A DNA stretch of 64,000 nt from Exiguobacterium mexicanum (GTDB lineage Bacteria > Bacillota > Bacilli > Exiguobacteriales > Exiguobacteriaceae), in assembly GCF_005960665.1 (NCBI RefSeq), contig NZ_CP040676.1, positions 2,419,001 to 2,483,000 on the forward strand, read 5' to 3'. Each line of letters begins with the position of its first letter. Position 1 is the stretch's first letter. This document shows, one piece after another, positions 1 to 32,087 of this stretch. Under the pieces are notes generated by a model. The model was not told the origin of the DNA. It saw only the letters and a list, made by a program, of their open reading frames with translations, and ran no database searches. The position numbers were made by a program, and so were the translations under genes.

Positions 1-703
1 ACCGTTTGGCTCGGAGCGCTTCGGTCGGGATGAGGAAATAAAGGATGCCGGCGTCACCGAACATGATGTCGAGTTCTTCGCTTGAATCCATTTGGAAAAG
101 GAGGAACGGATCGCTGAAACGGTCACCGTACGTATCTTCCACTTCTTCGAACACATCGTTTTGCACTTCGTCCGGATGTCCGCCGATCGCGTGCACCTCG
201 CCTTCATCGAACAACTCTTCTAAGGCGATGTACTCGTCTTCAGTCATGAGATTGAATAGCGTATCAACGTTCGGTGCGTAGGATTCCTCGAACACGACGG
301 CTCGCTCATTGAGTGCCTCGCCAATCCGGACCCGTTCAAGTGTCGTCGTTTCAGTGTAGAGAACTCGCCAAAGATGACGTTCATCTGTATCACCCCACGG
401 CTGTTCCTCCATATCATAAAAGAAAGAGAGCAATCCTTGTTTCGGAAGCTCCTCGACCGACTCGAAGCCTACGAAGTCGCTCAAGCGAAATTGCGCCAAA
501 AACGTCAAGTTTTCTCCCGGATGGTCCGACACACTCGGTAAATCTGGGTAACCGCCAAATTTTGAATGCCCGATTGCCACTTCTTCTCGCGCCGTCCGCG
601 GTACGAGCTTCAAGTTGATTCGTTTCATGAACGCCGCCAAGACTTCATTCCCGTCCTTAATTCCATGTGTTTTTATAAACTGCTTCACCGCTTGTAGTTC
701 CAT
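1..703 (-). CDS. YwqG-family (DUF1963) protein, 3' end cut by window edge
   Basis: The reading frame is open from an ATG at 703 to the left edge (about 234 codons), so the C-terminus is missing. A GAGGTG ribosome site lies just upstream of the ATG. The protein shows features I associate with the YwqG/DUF1963 family: a proline/glycine-rich GGYPDLP segment, an 'AIGGHPDEVQ' segment and, near the edge, 'LLFQMDSSEE...MFGDAGILYFLI'. The family has no settled function. It stands alone, divergent from the cidA-like gene at 855. The family call rests on motif memory. Confidence 0.72.
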   Translation of the reverse strand, partial: MELQAVKQFIKTHGIKDGNEVLAAFMKRINLKLVPRTAREEVAIGHSKFGGYPDLPSVSDHPGENLTFLAQFRLSDFVGFESVEELPKQGLLSFFYDMEEQPWGDTDERHLWRVLYTETTTLERVRIGEALNERAVVFEESYAPNVDTLFNLMTEDEYIALEELFDEGEVHAIGGHPDEVQNDVFEEVEDTYGDRFSDPFLLFQMDSSEELDIMFGDAGILYFLIPTEALRAKR

Positions 704-854
704 CTCCACACCTCGTTTACATAGGATGCTCATAGTGTATCACAGCGAACGTACGTACCCATTCTCTTTTTTGTCCTCGCCTCTCTCTTGACCTAGATGA
801 TAAAGTTTGAGAGAATCCATACGTTTTGAACTTAAATGCGAAAGGATGGTATAC

Positions 855-1211
855 ATGCAACTCTTTATCAAATGGATGATCGGCCTTTCGCTCTTATTCG
901 GGTTAAGCGCGCTCGTCAATTGGATTGTCGCCACTTTAGAATGGAAAGTGCCTGGGAACGTCGTCGGGATGATGCTGTTGTTGATATTACTTATGACAAA
1001 AATCATCCGAGTCGAATGGATCGAGGACAGTGCCGGCTTCCTCACGAAACATCTCGCTTTCTTCTTCATCCCGATTGCGGTCGGTCTCATGTCTTATAGT
1101 AATCTATTAAAAGCAGAAGGGATCCCGCTCTTTCTCGCCTTGATGATCAGTCTAAGTGTGGGGCTCATCGTGACCGCCATCATCTCCGGAAGACGAGGTG
1201 AAGCGTCATGA
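855..1211 (+). CDS. cidA: CidA/LrgA family holin-like protein
   Basis: About 118 residues with four hydrophobic segments and the PGNVVGMMLL element (about residues 33-42) typical of CidA/LrgA proteins. These are small holin-like membrane proteins that, with a LrgB/CidB partner, influence murein hydrolase activity or export of small metabolites such as pyruvate. The start at 855 is preferred over in-frame ATGs at 807 and 846 because GAAAGGA sits about 8 bases upstream. The stop overlaps the start of the next gene (ATGA), so the two are translationally coupled. Whether it is the Cid or Lrg type cannot be settled here. Confidence 0.85.
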   Translation: MQLFIKWMIGLSLLFGLSALVNWIVATLEWKVPGNVVGMMLLLILLMTKIIRVEWIEDSAGFLTKHLAFFFIPIAVGLMSYSNLLKAEGIPLFLALMISLSVGLIVTAIISGRRGEAS

Positions 1212-1882
1212 CATTATTTTGGGTACTCGTCACAGTTGGTGTCTATCTCATCAGCCGAAAACTATCATTTAAATGGGCGTCTCCGTTCACGAACGTCGTC
1301 TTCTTGAGCACAACTATTTTGATTGTGATCCTCCTTCTCTTTGAACAACCGTACGACGTGTATGAACCGGCCAAAGATTTGATCACGATTTTACTCGGCC
1401 CGGCGACCGTCGCCCTCGGTCTGCCGTTGTACCGCAACTTGCCGACGCTACTCGCACGCGCGAGACGTGCCCTCAGTGCAATCGTTGCCGGTACCGTCTC
1501 GACGATTATCGTCGCAGTCATGATTGGAACGGCGCTCAAACTGACGGACCAAGTGCTCATCGGGCTAGCGGTCAAATCCGTCACTGCTCCGATTGCACTC
1601 GAACTGGCAAAACAGCTCCAAGGAGACGCGGCGCTTGCTGCCTCCATCACTGTCGCCTGTGGCATACTCGGTGCCATGTTCGGTCCGCTAATGTTGTCGC
1701 TTTTCAAAGTGACTGATCCGTTCACGCGAGGACTCGCACTCGGAACGATCAGCCACGGCATCGGCACGGCTCAAGCCGCGACAGAACATCCGCTCTCAGG
1801 GGCCACCGGGGGCGCGGCGATGGGCCTGTCCGCCATCTTCACGTCGTTTTTGTTGCCGTTTCTCCTGCCGTTCCTTCTTTAA
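1208..1882 (+). CDS. cidB: LrgB/CidB family membrane protein
   Basis: A 224-residue multi-pass membrane protein that begins inside the stop codon of the CidA-like gene. The central 'LAVKSVTAPIALELAKQLQGD' stretch and the C-terminal 'GTISHGIGTAQAATE' stretch are the conserved blocks of the LrgB family. It is expected to act with the CidA-like partner in control of autolysis or in metabolite export across the membrane. A terminator follows at 1924. No LytSR or CidR regulator gene is next to the pair. Confidence 0.88.
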   Translation: MTLFWVLVTVGVYLISRKLSFKWASPFTNVVFLSTTILIVILLLFEQPYDVYEPAKDLITILLGPATVALGLPLYRNLPTLLARARRALSAIVAGTVSTIIVAVMIGTALKLTDQVLIGLAVKSVTAPIALELAKQLQGDAALAASITVACGILGAMFGPLMLSLFKVTDPFTRGLALGTISHGIGTAQAATEHPLSGATGGAAMGLSAIFTSFLLPFLLPFLL

Positions 1883-29228: not shown

Positions 29229-31139
29229 TCATTCGCCTCGTTCGGCCCGTTGTCGCGCCCGAATCTCTTTCTCGACGCGACGGAGCGCCTTCTTCGAACC
29301 GCGGGCAAAGTCGTGGGCTTCTTTCCGGTCCCGATAATCGACGAATAACGTTTCCAGGTCATAACCAGCTGGATACAAGTCGAGCGCTTTCGCCTCGCGT
29401 CGAACTCGACGGAGCGGGTGCTCACTGAAAACACCGTCGACATACACGGTGACTTGGCGCAACGATTCATCCATCGCATAGACAAGACCAACTTGATTCG
29501 TCTCAAGCAGGCGGACCCGGTCACCTTTCGCTAGCATTTGGTCAGGTTCGACGACAGGGCGGACGACTTCTTGTGTCAGGCGCGTCGCATCAAGGAGCGA
29601 CTGGTCATACGTCTTGTCGTGCATATAGCGGGCCGCCTGCTTCAAAATCGATTCGGGCAATTTCATTTTCCGGGCAATGAACAGGGCGTTGCTGTCGCCG
29701 GACTGCCCAATCAATAACCGATATTTCGGTTCGAGCGTGTCCGGGTCGAACTGCATGGCCGCATTCATGAAGTCCGGATGCGTCTCGGAGTACGCTTTGA
29801 TTTCGCCGTAATGGGTCGAGGCGACGACGAGACAGCCGCGCTTGTATGCCTCTTCTAAAATCGCGATGGCGAGGGCCGCTCCCTCGTTCGGCTCGGTCCC
29901 GCTTCCGATCTCATCGAATAATAGTAATGATCGCTTCCCGGCCTTCTGCATGATGCTCGCCACATTATGCATATGGGCCGAGAACGTGCTGAGCGCCGAC
30001 CCCATATCCTGATTGTCCCCGATGTCCACGAACACATCGTCAAACGTCGAGATGTCCGTATCGGGATGCGCCGGGATATGAAGCCCGCTCATCGTCATCA
30101 AACTGAGCAGGCCGATCGTCTTCAAGACGACCGTCTTCCCGCCGGCGTTCGGTCCGGTGATAATCAGACCGCGGTACGTGTCCCCGAGCGAGAAGTCGAG
30201 GGGAACAGCCCGTTCGAGAAGTGGATGGCGGACTTGTTTCAAACGGATGTTTCCGACGCCGTTCACACGCGGGGCGATGCCGTCGATGGCTTGGCTATAC
30301 TTTCCTTTTGCGAACACCATGTCGTATTGGGCGATGACGTCGAGCGTCGCCTCGATGGTCGGTAACGCTTCCGCCACCATACCGGTGAGCGTGGCGAGCA
30401 CTTGATAGATTTCGACCGCTTCCTCCGTCCGTTTGACGACGAGTTCCGCGTTCAGCTTTGCCACCGCTTCCGGTTCGATGAACACGGTCGTGCCGCGGCT
30501 CGACGTATCGACGATCGTCCCGGCGATTTTGTGTTTATACGACGCTTTGATTGGGACCGTGAAGCGGTCTTGTTTCTTCGTCACGAAGCCGTCTTGAATC
30601 GCTTCCCGGTTTGCGGCGCTCTTCAAGAACTTGCTCAACCGCTCCTCGATCCGTCCTTCGAGAATGTCGATTTGTTTGCGAACGCGTTTCAATTCTTTGG
30701 ACGCCTCGTCGACGACCCGTCCCCCGCGAATCGATTGGACGATGTCTTCCTCGATGCTGCGCCACTCGCTCATCTCATCCGCGTAAAGGGACAAGAGCGG
30801 GGCAAAGAACGCCTGCTCGGCCATGAACCGCTTCAGTTTACGGGCCCCGCGGAAAAATTCGGCGACGGCTTCGAGTTCGCTTGCCTCGAGCTGGATGCCC
30901 CGGCTGATTTTACCGATGAGCGGTTCCATAGCAGACACCCCGATAAAGGGGACGTGTGACGTCGCGTCGAGAATCGCGCGTGCTTCCGATGTCTCTTGAA
31001 GCCGTTTTTTCACCGTTTGCAAATGGCTCGTCGGACGCTGATTTCGTAACAAGTTTCGTCCGAATCCGCTGATGCAGTAGCGTTCGACGTGTTGAATCAA
31101 GTCGTTGTATTGTAGTTTGTCTAATGTTTGTTCATTCAT
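29229..31139 (-). CDS. MutS2-like ATPase lacking the Smr domain
   Basis: 636 residues, against about 780 for MutS2. The N-terminal core and clamp (about 1-300) includes 'GTIVDTSSRGTTVFIEPEAV', a MutS2 hallmark. The MutS-type ATPase has Walker A 'GPNAGGKTVVLKTIGL' near 329-336, 'STFSAHMHNV' signature and Walker B 'LLLFDEIGSGTEPNEGAALA'. A KOW-like segment follows ('KGDRVRLLETNQVGLVYAM', about 530-580). The protein ends after a short basic tail, with no Smr nuclease domain. MutS2 relatives act on stalled or collided ribosomes or on DNA. A structured leader with its own small open frame precedes it. Confidence 0.88.
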   Translation of the reverse strand: MNEQTLDKLQYNDLIQHVERYCISGFGRNLLRNQRPTSHLQTVKKRLQETSEARAILDATSHVPFIGVSAMEPLIGKISRGIQLEASELEAVAEFFRGARKLKRFMAEQAFFAPLLSLYADEMSEWRSIEEDIVQSIRGGRVVDEASKELKRVRKQIDILEGRIEERLSKFLKSAANREAIQDGFVTKKQDRFTVPIKASYKHKIAGTIVDTSSRGTTVFIEPEAVAKLNAELVVKRTEEAVEIYQVLATLTGMVAEALPTIEATLDVIAQYDMVFAKGKYSQAIDGIAPRVNGVGNIRLKQVRHPLLERAVPLDFSLGDTYRGLIITGPNAGGKTVVLKTIGLLSLMTMSGLHIPAHPDTDISTFDDVFVDIGDNQDMGSALSTFSAHMHNVASIMQKAGKRSLLLFDEIGSGTEPNEGAALAIAILEEAYKRGCLVVASTHYGEIKAYSETHPDFMNAAMQFDPDTLEPKYRLLIGQSGDSNALFIARKMKLPESILKQAARYMHDKTYDQSLLDATRLTQEVVRPVVEPDQMLAKGDRVRLLETNQVGLVYAMDESLRQVTVYVDGVFSEHPLRRVRREAKALDLYPAGYDLETLFVDYRDRKEAHDFARGSKKALRRVEKEIRARQRAERGE

Positions 31140-31180
31140 GATGGGGTCTCCTTATTTTGTGATGGAGATACCGCGCAAAC

Positions 31181-31209
31181 AAAAAGCGTCGGCCGATGAC
31201 GACCAACGC
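31181..31209 (-). terminator. Leader terminator (attenuator) upstream of the MutS2-like gene
   Basis: On the minus strand GCGUUGGUCG pairs over 10 bp (two G-U) with CGGCCGACGC around a UCAU loop, followed by UUUUUG. It lies about 45 bases before the start codon, inside the leader, so it must be bypassed for expression. Confidence 0.8.
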
Positions 31210-31309
31210 AAAAAGACAGACCGATGTCTGGCAGTTTATGAAGGGCGGTATCTGTAACAGAACATGAAGGCATGACAAAAAGACGCGTCATCCAACATTT
31301 TTCAGTTCG

Positions 31310-31339
31310 TTAGGCAGATACAACCTCACTCATTAACAT
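31310..31339 (-). CDS. 9-codon leader open frame of the MutS2-like gene
   Basis: ATG at 31339 preceded by GAAAGGTG at about 6 bases; product MLMSEVVSA then TAA. It lies between the predicted promoter and the terminator hairpin, the usual place for a leader peptide in ribosome-sensing attenuation. Too short to assess by composition. Confidence 0.5.
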   Translation of the reverse strand: MLMSEVVSA

Positions 31340-31369
31340 GCAACACCTTTCTCATTTAGTTTCGACCTT

Positions 31370-31398
31370 ACTATACAACAGATTTTCGAAGAAGTAAA
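31370..31398 (-). promoter_or_regulatory. Promoter of the MutS2-like leader
   Basis: TTTACT (31393-31398) and TATAGT (31370-31375) on the minus strand with a 17-base spacer. The start point would be near 31364, about 25 bases before the leader open frame. Confidence 0.55.
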
Positions 31399-31427: not shown

Positions 31428-31456
31428 TTGATATCTATACATCGGCGTGCTATCTT
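31428..31456 (+). promoter_or_regulatory. Promoter of the EIIA-glcT-nagE operon
   Basis: TTGATA (31428-31433), 17-base spacer, TATCTT (31451-31456). The transcript would begin near 31463 and run through the RAT and terminator. Confidence 0.6.
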
Positions 31457-31483
31457 GAGGGTGACGAAACGAATAATGATCAC

Positions 31484-31563
31484 ATGTGACTGATTCGATC
31501 AGGCATGGGGTAAGACGAAAGGCTCACGCCACCCGTCTATACTCCATGCCTGTTTTGTTTTTT
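31484..31563 (+). promoter_or_regulatory. GlcT-type RAT antiterminator overlapping an intrinsic terminator
   Basis: The RAT hairpin is centred on CTGAT-TCG-ATCAG (31490-31502) within ATGTGACTGATTCGATCAGG, close to the B. subtilis ptsG RAT as I recall it. Its 3' arm overlaps the terminator 5' arm CAGGCATGG (31500-31508), which pairs with CCATGCCTG (31544-31552) and is followed by TTTTGTTTTTT. The two folds exclude each other, the standard mechanism for BglG/GlcT antitermination. Confidence 0.88.
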
Positions 31564-31598
31564 CACAATCATTTTTCAAGCGAAAGGATGATTCGAAG

Positions 31599-32087
31599 AT
31601 GTTATTGAATAAGTGGATGAAGAGACATACACTGACACTTTATGCACCCATGGAAGGAGACATCATTCCACTTGAGGAAGTGACCGACCCTGTCTTCAGC
31701 GAGAAGATGATGGGCGACGGGATTGCCATCATGCCGACGAACGGAACCGTCGTCGCTCCGGCTGATGGGACCATCGTCCAAGTCGCACCGACGAAGCATG
31801 CCATCGGACTCCGTTCGGGAGACGGAGCTGAAATTTTGATTCATGTCGGACTGGACACGGTCGAGCTTGCGGGAAGCCCGTTCGACGTTCACGTCAAAGT
31901 CGGTGACACGGTCACGATCGGACAGCCACTGTTGACGGCCGACTTGGAACAAATCCGGCAAGCCGGAAAAGACACGGTCACCCCGATGGTCATCACGAAC
32001 GGAGGCGCGTTGGAACAAGCTTACTCGTTCCATACAGGTGGCCCATCGCTTCCTGGGAAGACTGTCGTCGCTCAAGCGGAACAATGA
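31599..32087 (+). CDS. PTS EIIA(Glc)-type phosphocarrier
   Basis: 162 residues, a free-standing EIIA of the glucose family. H82 in 'EILIHVGLDTVEL' is the phospho-accepting histidine, with the partner H67 in 'PTKHAIGLRS'. It accepts phosphate from HPr and passes it to an EIIB domain, presumably that of the EIICB encoded two genes downstream. It is the first gene after the RAT/terminator leader. The ribosome site is GAAAGGA. Confidence 0.92.
   Translation: MLLNKWMKRHTLTLYAPMEGDIIPLEEVTDPVFSEKMMGDGIAIMPTNGTVVAPADGTIVQVAPTKHAIGLRSGDGAEILIHVGLDTVELAGSPFDVHVKVGDTVTIGQPLLTADLEQIRQAGKDTVTPMVITNGGALEQAYSFHTGGPSLPGKTVVAQAEQ

Follow-up and report, generated by a model that had tools for sequence, protein, structure and literature searches.

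A uORF-containing leader with the layout of a ribosome-sensing attenuator precedes an Smr-less MutS2 paralogue in Exiguobacterium and other Bacillota

A MutS2-like gene of Exiguobacterium mexicanum is preceded by a leader that is very probably a ribosome-sensing attenuator, in which stalling of a ribosome on a short upstream open reading frame (uORF) would free a downstream RNA element, here termed B, and thereby permit expression of a probable ribosome-splitting factor. Gene and leader lie in a window of 64,000 nucleotides (the whole stretch of DNA that was analysed; contig NZ_CP040676.1, positions 2,419,001 to 2,483,000), to which all coordinates refer. By analogy with known leaders of this layout, induction would come from ribosomes stalled on the uORF, probably as a consequence of ribosome-targeting antibiotics. 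A preliminary description, made from the sequence alone, had pointed to the layout of antibiotic-induced attenuators, and this is strongly supported by the comparison of leaders across the genus and the wider family; the promoter, uORF, hairpin, terminator and complementary stretches that it named are all present in their places. We lean slightly towards a broader proposal, namely that an undescribed, Bacillota-wide class of stall sensors, built from a uORF of 6-8 codons and a switch helix between the uORF end (element A) and B, controls an Smr-less MutS2 subfamily that would split drug-stalled ribosomes and would provide, in parallel to HflXr and the ABC-F proteins, an inducible means of resistance or tolerance; in some lineages, according to this proposal, the sensor also controls a BpsA-like branched-polyamine synthase. 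No attenuated MutS2 paralogue was found in the open-access literature, outside which most subscription papers and preprints fall, in agreement with the earlier statement that no such case was known.

The leader comprises 259 bases of the minus strand (31398 to 31140), with a promoter-like sequence, the uORF and two hairpins with T tracts, followed by the 636-codon gene (29229..31139, minus strand). The promoter-like TTTACT-17-TATAGT (31370..31398, minus strand) has 9 of 12 consensus matches, a match that by itself is at chance level (5 such sites in 6 kb vs 3.4 expected), and its TATAGT is invariant in 19/19 genomes of the genus. The uORF MLMSEVVSA* (31310..31339, minus strand) had been described as a frame of 9 codons, and this frame with its own Shine-Dalgarno (SD) sequence does exist, but the start common to relatives is a second in-frame ATG at 31333, which gives the 7-codon frame MSEVVSA*; since the copy in the sister genus (L079), (L)MSGVVSA*, has no in-frame ATG at the first start position, the shorter frame is favoured. 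The 3' end of the uORF contains element A (GTATCTG, 31315..31321, minus strand), assigned from folding, pairing in the genus and the leaders of relatives. It is followed by hairpin P1 (GGATGAC..GTCATGCC, 31269..31293, minus strand; helix 2, 99% of cells paired) and by element B (CAGATACCGC, 31245..31254, minus strand), which according to folding and comparison has either A, in an anti-antiterminator, or a distal element C as its partner. After P1 the window reads TCTTTTTG, and a TTATTT was noticed by eye in many relatives, which raises the question of a NusG pause site of the TTNTTT type. Where a single terminator at 31209-31181 had been proposed, there are two hairpins in tandem: the proposed one, T2, is an intrinsic terminator with a T tract (31181..31209, minus strand) and a stem of 10 pairs, 7 of them G-C (31209-31186), and it is preceded by T1 (31210..31230, minus strand), a weak terminator or pause hairpin that also has a T tract and whose stem (31230-31217) consists of 5 pairs. 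The pairs of T1 are invariant in the genus, and T2 shows one-sided, pair-keeping changes at 2 pairs and 1 broken cell. Element C (GCGGTATCT, 31166..31174, minus strand), with 9 bases complementary to B, is overlapped by TCTCC (31164..31168, minus strand), a possible partner of GGAGA in the ribosome site of the gene (AAGGAGA, 31147..31153, minus strand, placed from the sequence and the genus alignment); four of these five pairs form in 19/19 genomes and the fifth in 12/19. From the uORF to T2 (165 nt) the RNA folds with -58.7 kcal/mol (z -5.2), a value equalled by 0/200 shuffles. Neither the window nor 14 loci that were searched contained a match to Rfam 15 at gathering score, and 6 loci gave none at E<=0.1. 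The genome of the window has no convincing second copy of the leader, the next best match having an E of 0.09.

Gene and leader are present in all 19 genomes of the genus, and conservation is concentrated in the proposed regulatory parts. In the 7 most distant congeners, identity to the window amounts to 97.7% for the SD sequence with the uORF, 91.7% for the segment between uORF stop and B and 94.0% for B through C, as against 43.8% for the segment between C and the gene's ATG, 71.1% for that between promoter and uORF, and 43.2% for the four-fold sites of the gene. The uORF shows only synonymous changes in the 19 genomes, and the outer helix, that is, the A:B stem, retains all 18 pairs in 19/19 congeners. 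The 19 genomes are too similar to each other here for compensatory changes, and their leader helices show none, so that the A:B pairing rests on the wider comparison. In the sister genus, the gene occurs in 1/19 genomes (G024), with a diverged leader.

Beyond the genus, the C-terminal 131 residues of the protein as query gave matches in 49/299 genomes of the class. In a scan of named genomes, the relatives among the matches listed (at least 80 loci) include Ureibacillus, Paenibacillus, Enterococcus, Rossellomorea, Mesobacillus, Fictibacillus, Halobacillus, Cytobacillus, Natronincola, Lacrimispora, Fusibacter and others. The same layout, a short uORF, an A:B pairing and then one or more terminators, is also found upstream of MutS2 genes without Smr in further Bacilli and in some Clostridia. 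For counting, a reduced set of 53 loci was drawn from the 62 short-family loci outside the genus by omitting 12 (the near-copies L066, L073, L081, L084-L086, L088, L090, L092, L093 and L119, and the truncated L127) and including three of the 19 genus loci; L095, where the MutS2 gene was not found, and L115, where Smr is present, were dropped. The preliminary description had expected the small frame and the helices to be kept in relatives, and a short uORF with its own SD is indeed found in 19/19 congeners and in 47/53 loci of the reduced set as curated by eye, the six loci without one being L067, L071, L074, L106, L114 and L139. Automatic uORF scans picked wrong frames in several loci and were replaced by this curation, which favours the model; the automatic scan itself places 19/53 family loci above the top control score of 9.3, the controls being the upstream regions of 18 canonical MutS2 genes and 62 ORFs of the window. 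Together with L066, L081 and L093, the 47 uORF-bearing loci make up the 50 curated leaders. From the shared start, the uORF has 6-8 codons in 48/50 of these (9 in L116 and 11 in L117), and its peptide differs between families (MSEVVSA*, VSAVGSK*, MLGVVLN*, MSVSYLA). The short MutS2 genes of Lactobacillaceae type at L071, L073 and L114 have another short uORF, MMLIVF*, with a hairpin, no further than about 95 bases from the gene and without the A:B switch, which is possibly a separate translational attenuator.

In the window, A pairs with CAGATAC (31254-31248) in B, and the stem is completed by TAAC/GTTA, GAAC/GTTC and hairpin P1. Judged from the window only, these 7 matching bases are at chance level, as 11/60 shuffles equal them; it is the comparison with relatives that carries the pairing. 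The 50 curated leaders were folded over the stretch between the uORF end and +130. In 48 of them, 6 or more bases at the end of the uORF paired with RNA that lies 40 or more bases further downstream, nearly always with B (mean z -3.56), as against z values of -1.69 to +1.06 for 18 fixed control stretches (-300 to -155) upstream of canonical MutS2. L062 and L117 have 5 such bases each, and in five leaders (L078, L080, L100, L112, L141) the partners of the uORF end are spread over more than one stretch. Covariation had been suggested as a check: absent within the genus, it is evident between families, where A and B change together and stay complementary (GTTCTTAACTAA/TTAGTTAAGAAC, GTCTTTAACTC/GAGTTAAGGAC, CTTGGCTTAA/TTAAGTCAAG, GGTATCT/AGATACC, GTATCTG/CAGATAC). 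Two main leader types track two large clades of the protein tree, namely group I, to which the window belongs, with uORF ends such as GTAGGTTCTAAATAG, and group II, with a nearly fixed GTTCTTAACTAA. Against shuffles, the ungapped A:B match reaches p<=0.05 in 26/27 group-II leaders and in 3/23 leaders outside group II, 18 of these 23 lying above the median of foreign leaders; the A:B stem of group I has bulges. Comparison and folding together show the 3' end of the uORF to sit, in the predicted structure of the free RNA, in an anti-antiterminator helix with B.

The preliminary description had seen the switch in another helix, between GATGACG (31292-31286) and CGTCATC (31201-31195). The two stretches are complementary as claimed (duplex -11.3 kcal/mol), and their helix forms in the fold of the window when T2 is forbidden, but it is less conserved than A:B, its seventh pair being present in 4/19 genomes and two of the other six pairs failing in one genome each. 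GAUGAC, the base of hairpin P1 between the uORF and B, would be out of reach for a ribosome that translates the uORF. The 5' side of this helix also makes P1, and the helix was set aside as the main switch. The outer pairing of GATACCGC with GCGGTATC that had been noted does hold and, with one additional pair, constitutes the 9-base B:C helix, but A had been missed as the alternative partner of B.

A terminator was found by script between uORF and gene in 41/50 leaders. For six leaders (window, L097, L065, L083, L110 and the congener L014), the RNA was folded as far as the middle of the terminator while the uORF was masked. In the relatives L097, L065, L083 and L110 and in L014, the 5' arm of the terminator is then paired with the B region, and in the window it makes contact with the final bases of B only. 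With the uORF masked, T2 is better than the best T2-free fold by 8.9 kcal/mol in the window and by 4.2 to 8.9 kcal/mol in the other five, and 3/41 leaders have p<=0.05 for complementarity of B to the 5' half of the first terminator. Owing to the weak contact of B and the stability of T2, antitermination by B in the window is held to be probable by analogy with the relatives only.

The pairing of B with C is the strongest in the leader. The predicted fold of the complete readthrough RNA of the window contains both A:B and TCTCC:GGAGA. When the uORF is masked, B:C forms and UCUCC:GGAGA, with which it is mutually exclusive, is lost, but GGAG then pairs with CUUC (31269-31266), which lowers confidence in the attenuator reading; when the RNA is folded from B onward, the ribosome site is nearly free. 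On these models, masking of the uORF would likely open the ribosome site of the gene. Outside group II, B:C reaches p<=0.05 in 11/23 leaders (in one, L068, away from B), the longest B:C comprises 15 bases (L070), and in the Paenibacillus leader L098 B and C have changed together (GAAGAACCCTAC/GTAGGGTTCTTC). In L062, about 300 bases of other sequence lie between terminator and C, and the leader seems to have been parted from its gene by an insertion.

In the proposed mechanism, normal translation of the uORF would let A:B re-form, and RNA polymerase would stop at T2, with UCUCC:GGAGA hiding the ribosome site of the gene in any stray readthrough RNA. A drug or another block that stalls the ribosome on the last uORF codons would cover A and leave B free. 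Free B could then engage the 5' arm of the terminator, a contact that is seen in the folds of relatives and is weak in the window, and in readthrough RNA it would pair with C, so that the hairpin formed by UCUCC and GGAGA is displaced. As an ATPase of MutS2 fold that has a KOW-like domain and no Smr, the gene product would probably have stalled ribosomes as its target and would most likely split them.

The gene had been called MutS2-like, and its kinship is borne out by profiles and structure model, but it is a MutS2 paralogue without Smr domain, distinct from canonical MutS2 (784 aa, about 40% identical), which is a separate gene in 19/19 genomes of the genus. Its 636-aa product scores 583 bits with the MutS2 profile TIGR01069 (cut-off 400), and the match stops at profile position 517 of 790; in Pfam, MutS domain V is matched, domain III is below cut-off, and no Smr domain is matched at E<=0.001. 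The HGxGTG text motif of Smr occurs in 0/51 short and 18/22 canonical proteins. In a tree of 72 proteins, from which one canonical protein was excluded for length, the 51 short and 21 canonical proteins lie on opposite sides of one branch (SH-aLRT 100). The ATPase core aligns with B. subtilis MutS2 over residues 2-508, and the closest solved structures are B. subtilis MutS2 on collided ribosomes (PDB 8qpp, 7qv3) and the Thermotoga and Thermus MutS2 proteins. An AlphaFold2 model (mean pLDDT 87.8, 48-row alignment) has five strands at 541-583 and a helical tail; the strands align with the KOW region of MutS2 and have a KOW-like fold, in which the uS10-contact motif is replaced. A plasmid collection contains 89 records that match at protein level, all below 60% identity, most of which resemble other MutS-family proteins; three matches in Cytobacillus and Paenibacillus records (H2-H4) are MutS2-like, with 33-35% identity over 95-96% of the query, and may be Smr-less relatives outside chromosomes. 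An anti-phage role was considered and rejected, the search having given only weak ATPase-type matches.

According to the accessible text of the B. subtilis study (PMC10897456), loss of mutS2 makes cells hypersensitive to chloramphenicol, tetracycline and erythromycin, and the ATPase of MutS2 serves to split disomes. In that study, splitting is as good as in the wild type when the DLR motif of Smr is mutated, and Smr mutations cost little erythromycin resistance, yet loss of Smr reduces ribosome binding. The window protein shares the ATPase core and KOW-like fold with that MutS2 and differs from it in lacking Smr and the uS10-contact motif, in its side of the tree and in having an attenuated leader of its own (PMC10897456; PDB 8qpp, 7qv3). 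The reading of the gene as an attenuator-controlled factor acting on stalled ribosomes is weakened by the absence of the uS10-contact motif, and likewise by the strong cut in ribosome binding upon Smr deletion that the same text reports (PMC10897456). The subfamily offers a natural test of whether splitting of the MutS2 type needs Smr, on which published results are mixed.

Known stall-sensing leaders of this layout precede genes that handle stalled or drug-bound ribosomes. As described in the available text on the B. subtilis vmlR leader (PMC9226507), a short uORF lies in an anti-antiterminator stem, followed by a pause hairpin and an intrinsic terminator, and in readthrough RNA an SD-sequestering hairpin is opposed by an alternative pairing; the likeness is one of description, and vmlR differs in its uORF (Met-Ile-Asn), its gene (an ABC-F ATPase) and in having a known inducer, lincomycin. 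In Listeria hflXr (rli80), a second copy of a splitting factor is under a uORF-dependent transcription attenuator, but that gene encodes an HflX homologue and its uORF has 14 codons with an RLR motif, compared with 6-8 codons without RLR here (PMC6310831, as far as its text is available). By this analogy, the gene would relate to MutS2 as HflXr does to HflX, as its inducible counterpart. In E. coli, the uORF of topAI-yjhQ senses stalling by several antibiotic classes, a likeness again by description of the accessible text, in another phylum and with another gene (PMC12121999).

The same stall sensor might act mainly on translation, with constant partial readthrough, the choice between B:C and UCUCC:GGAGA deciding the outcome and T2 only lowering the level. 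This is conceivable, though we give it clearly less credence than transcription attenuation: B:C (-15.3 kcal/mol) is stronger in the window than A:B (-10.3 kcal/mol) and 100% paired in the genus, and the antiterminator of the window is weak, but T2 is strong and conserved, the ribosome site is not freed in the masked fold, and group-II relatives keep their terminators without a clear C (B:C p<=0.05 in 3/27). A different doubt concerns the gene, which could work on DNA in recombination or repair and be induced by antibiotics through a stall-sensing attenuator for another reason. The MutS fold, the missing Smr domain and the missing uS10-contact motif of the KOW region speak for such a role; its kinship to MutS2, a ribosome-acting protein in B. 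subtilis, and the ribosome-acting genes behind the vmlR and hflXr leaders of this layout make it rather unlikely.

Two further explanations were considered. A classical attenuator for amino-acid or tRNA starvation, the uORF of which senses charged tRNA, would account for the recurrence of Val, Ser, Leu and Asn in the uORF peptides, but a run of a single residue is absent from these peptides, whose residues vary by family (VSAVGSK, MLGVVLN, MSVSYLA), the controlled genes are not biosynthetic for these amino acids, and the conserved last codons are accounted for by A:B; we regard it as very improbable. Still less credible is a ligand-binding riboswitch or thermosensor with an untranslated uORF: the leader is strongly structured and conserved, but the uORF is equipped with a ribosome site of its own and has changed only synonymously among congeners, the frame is kept across families despite base changes, and there is no Rfam match to the loci searched. 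The preferred reading remains that of a ribosome-sensing attenuator in front of a probable ribosome-splitting factor, and the wide conservation of the leader marks this MutS2 subfamily, automatically annotated as MutS2 or mismatch repair, as a probable inducible factor of ribosome rescue or resistance.

The leader of group II is not confined to MutS2 paralogues. Its pattern was matched in 52/398 genomes, and the reversed control pattern in none. Among 48 loci with this pattern (38 distinct places), 27 loci (24 places) stand before a MutS2-like gene and 19 (13 places) before a gene with a BpsA_C domain, the remaining 2 being an antisense reading of one place in G360; the 48 loci combine 30 places among the matches listed with 18 hand-picked stretches (10 of them repeats) and are not a fair sample, and their targets were sorted by loose text patterns checked by eye. 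In L212-L221 and L229, a uORF/A:B leader (MSVCVLN*, MSALVLN* etc.) precedes a BpsA-like polyamine-synthase gene; in L212, for example, the leader starts at 233 and the gene extends over 530-1702, with 143 bits for the BpsA_C domain and N4-bis(aminopropyl)spermidine synthase among the PDB relatives. In one genome (G289), both the BpsA-like and the MutS2-like gene carry such a leader. The BpsA-like polyamine synthase is thus a second candidate stress gene and, if this holds true, a link between polyamines and translation stress would follow from the shared sensor. At L213 (genome G186), the BpsA-like gene is followed downstream by a gene for an MFS transporter (353-1564, minus strand), the best match of which is to Tet(A)-type efflux pumps, below cut-off.

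Divergent to the leader in the window, the plus strand contains at 31455-31600 a long hairpin with a T-rich tract behind it (z -5.2), an arrangement that is kept in the 19 genomes. It precedes a PTS EIIA gene that adjoins a LicT/GlcT-like antiterminator gene at 32038, and is probably an antitermination leader of the BglG type.
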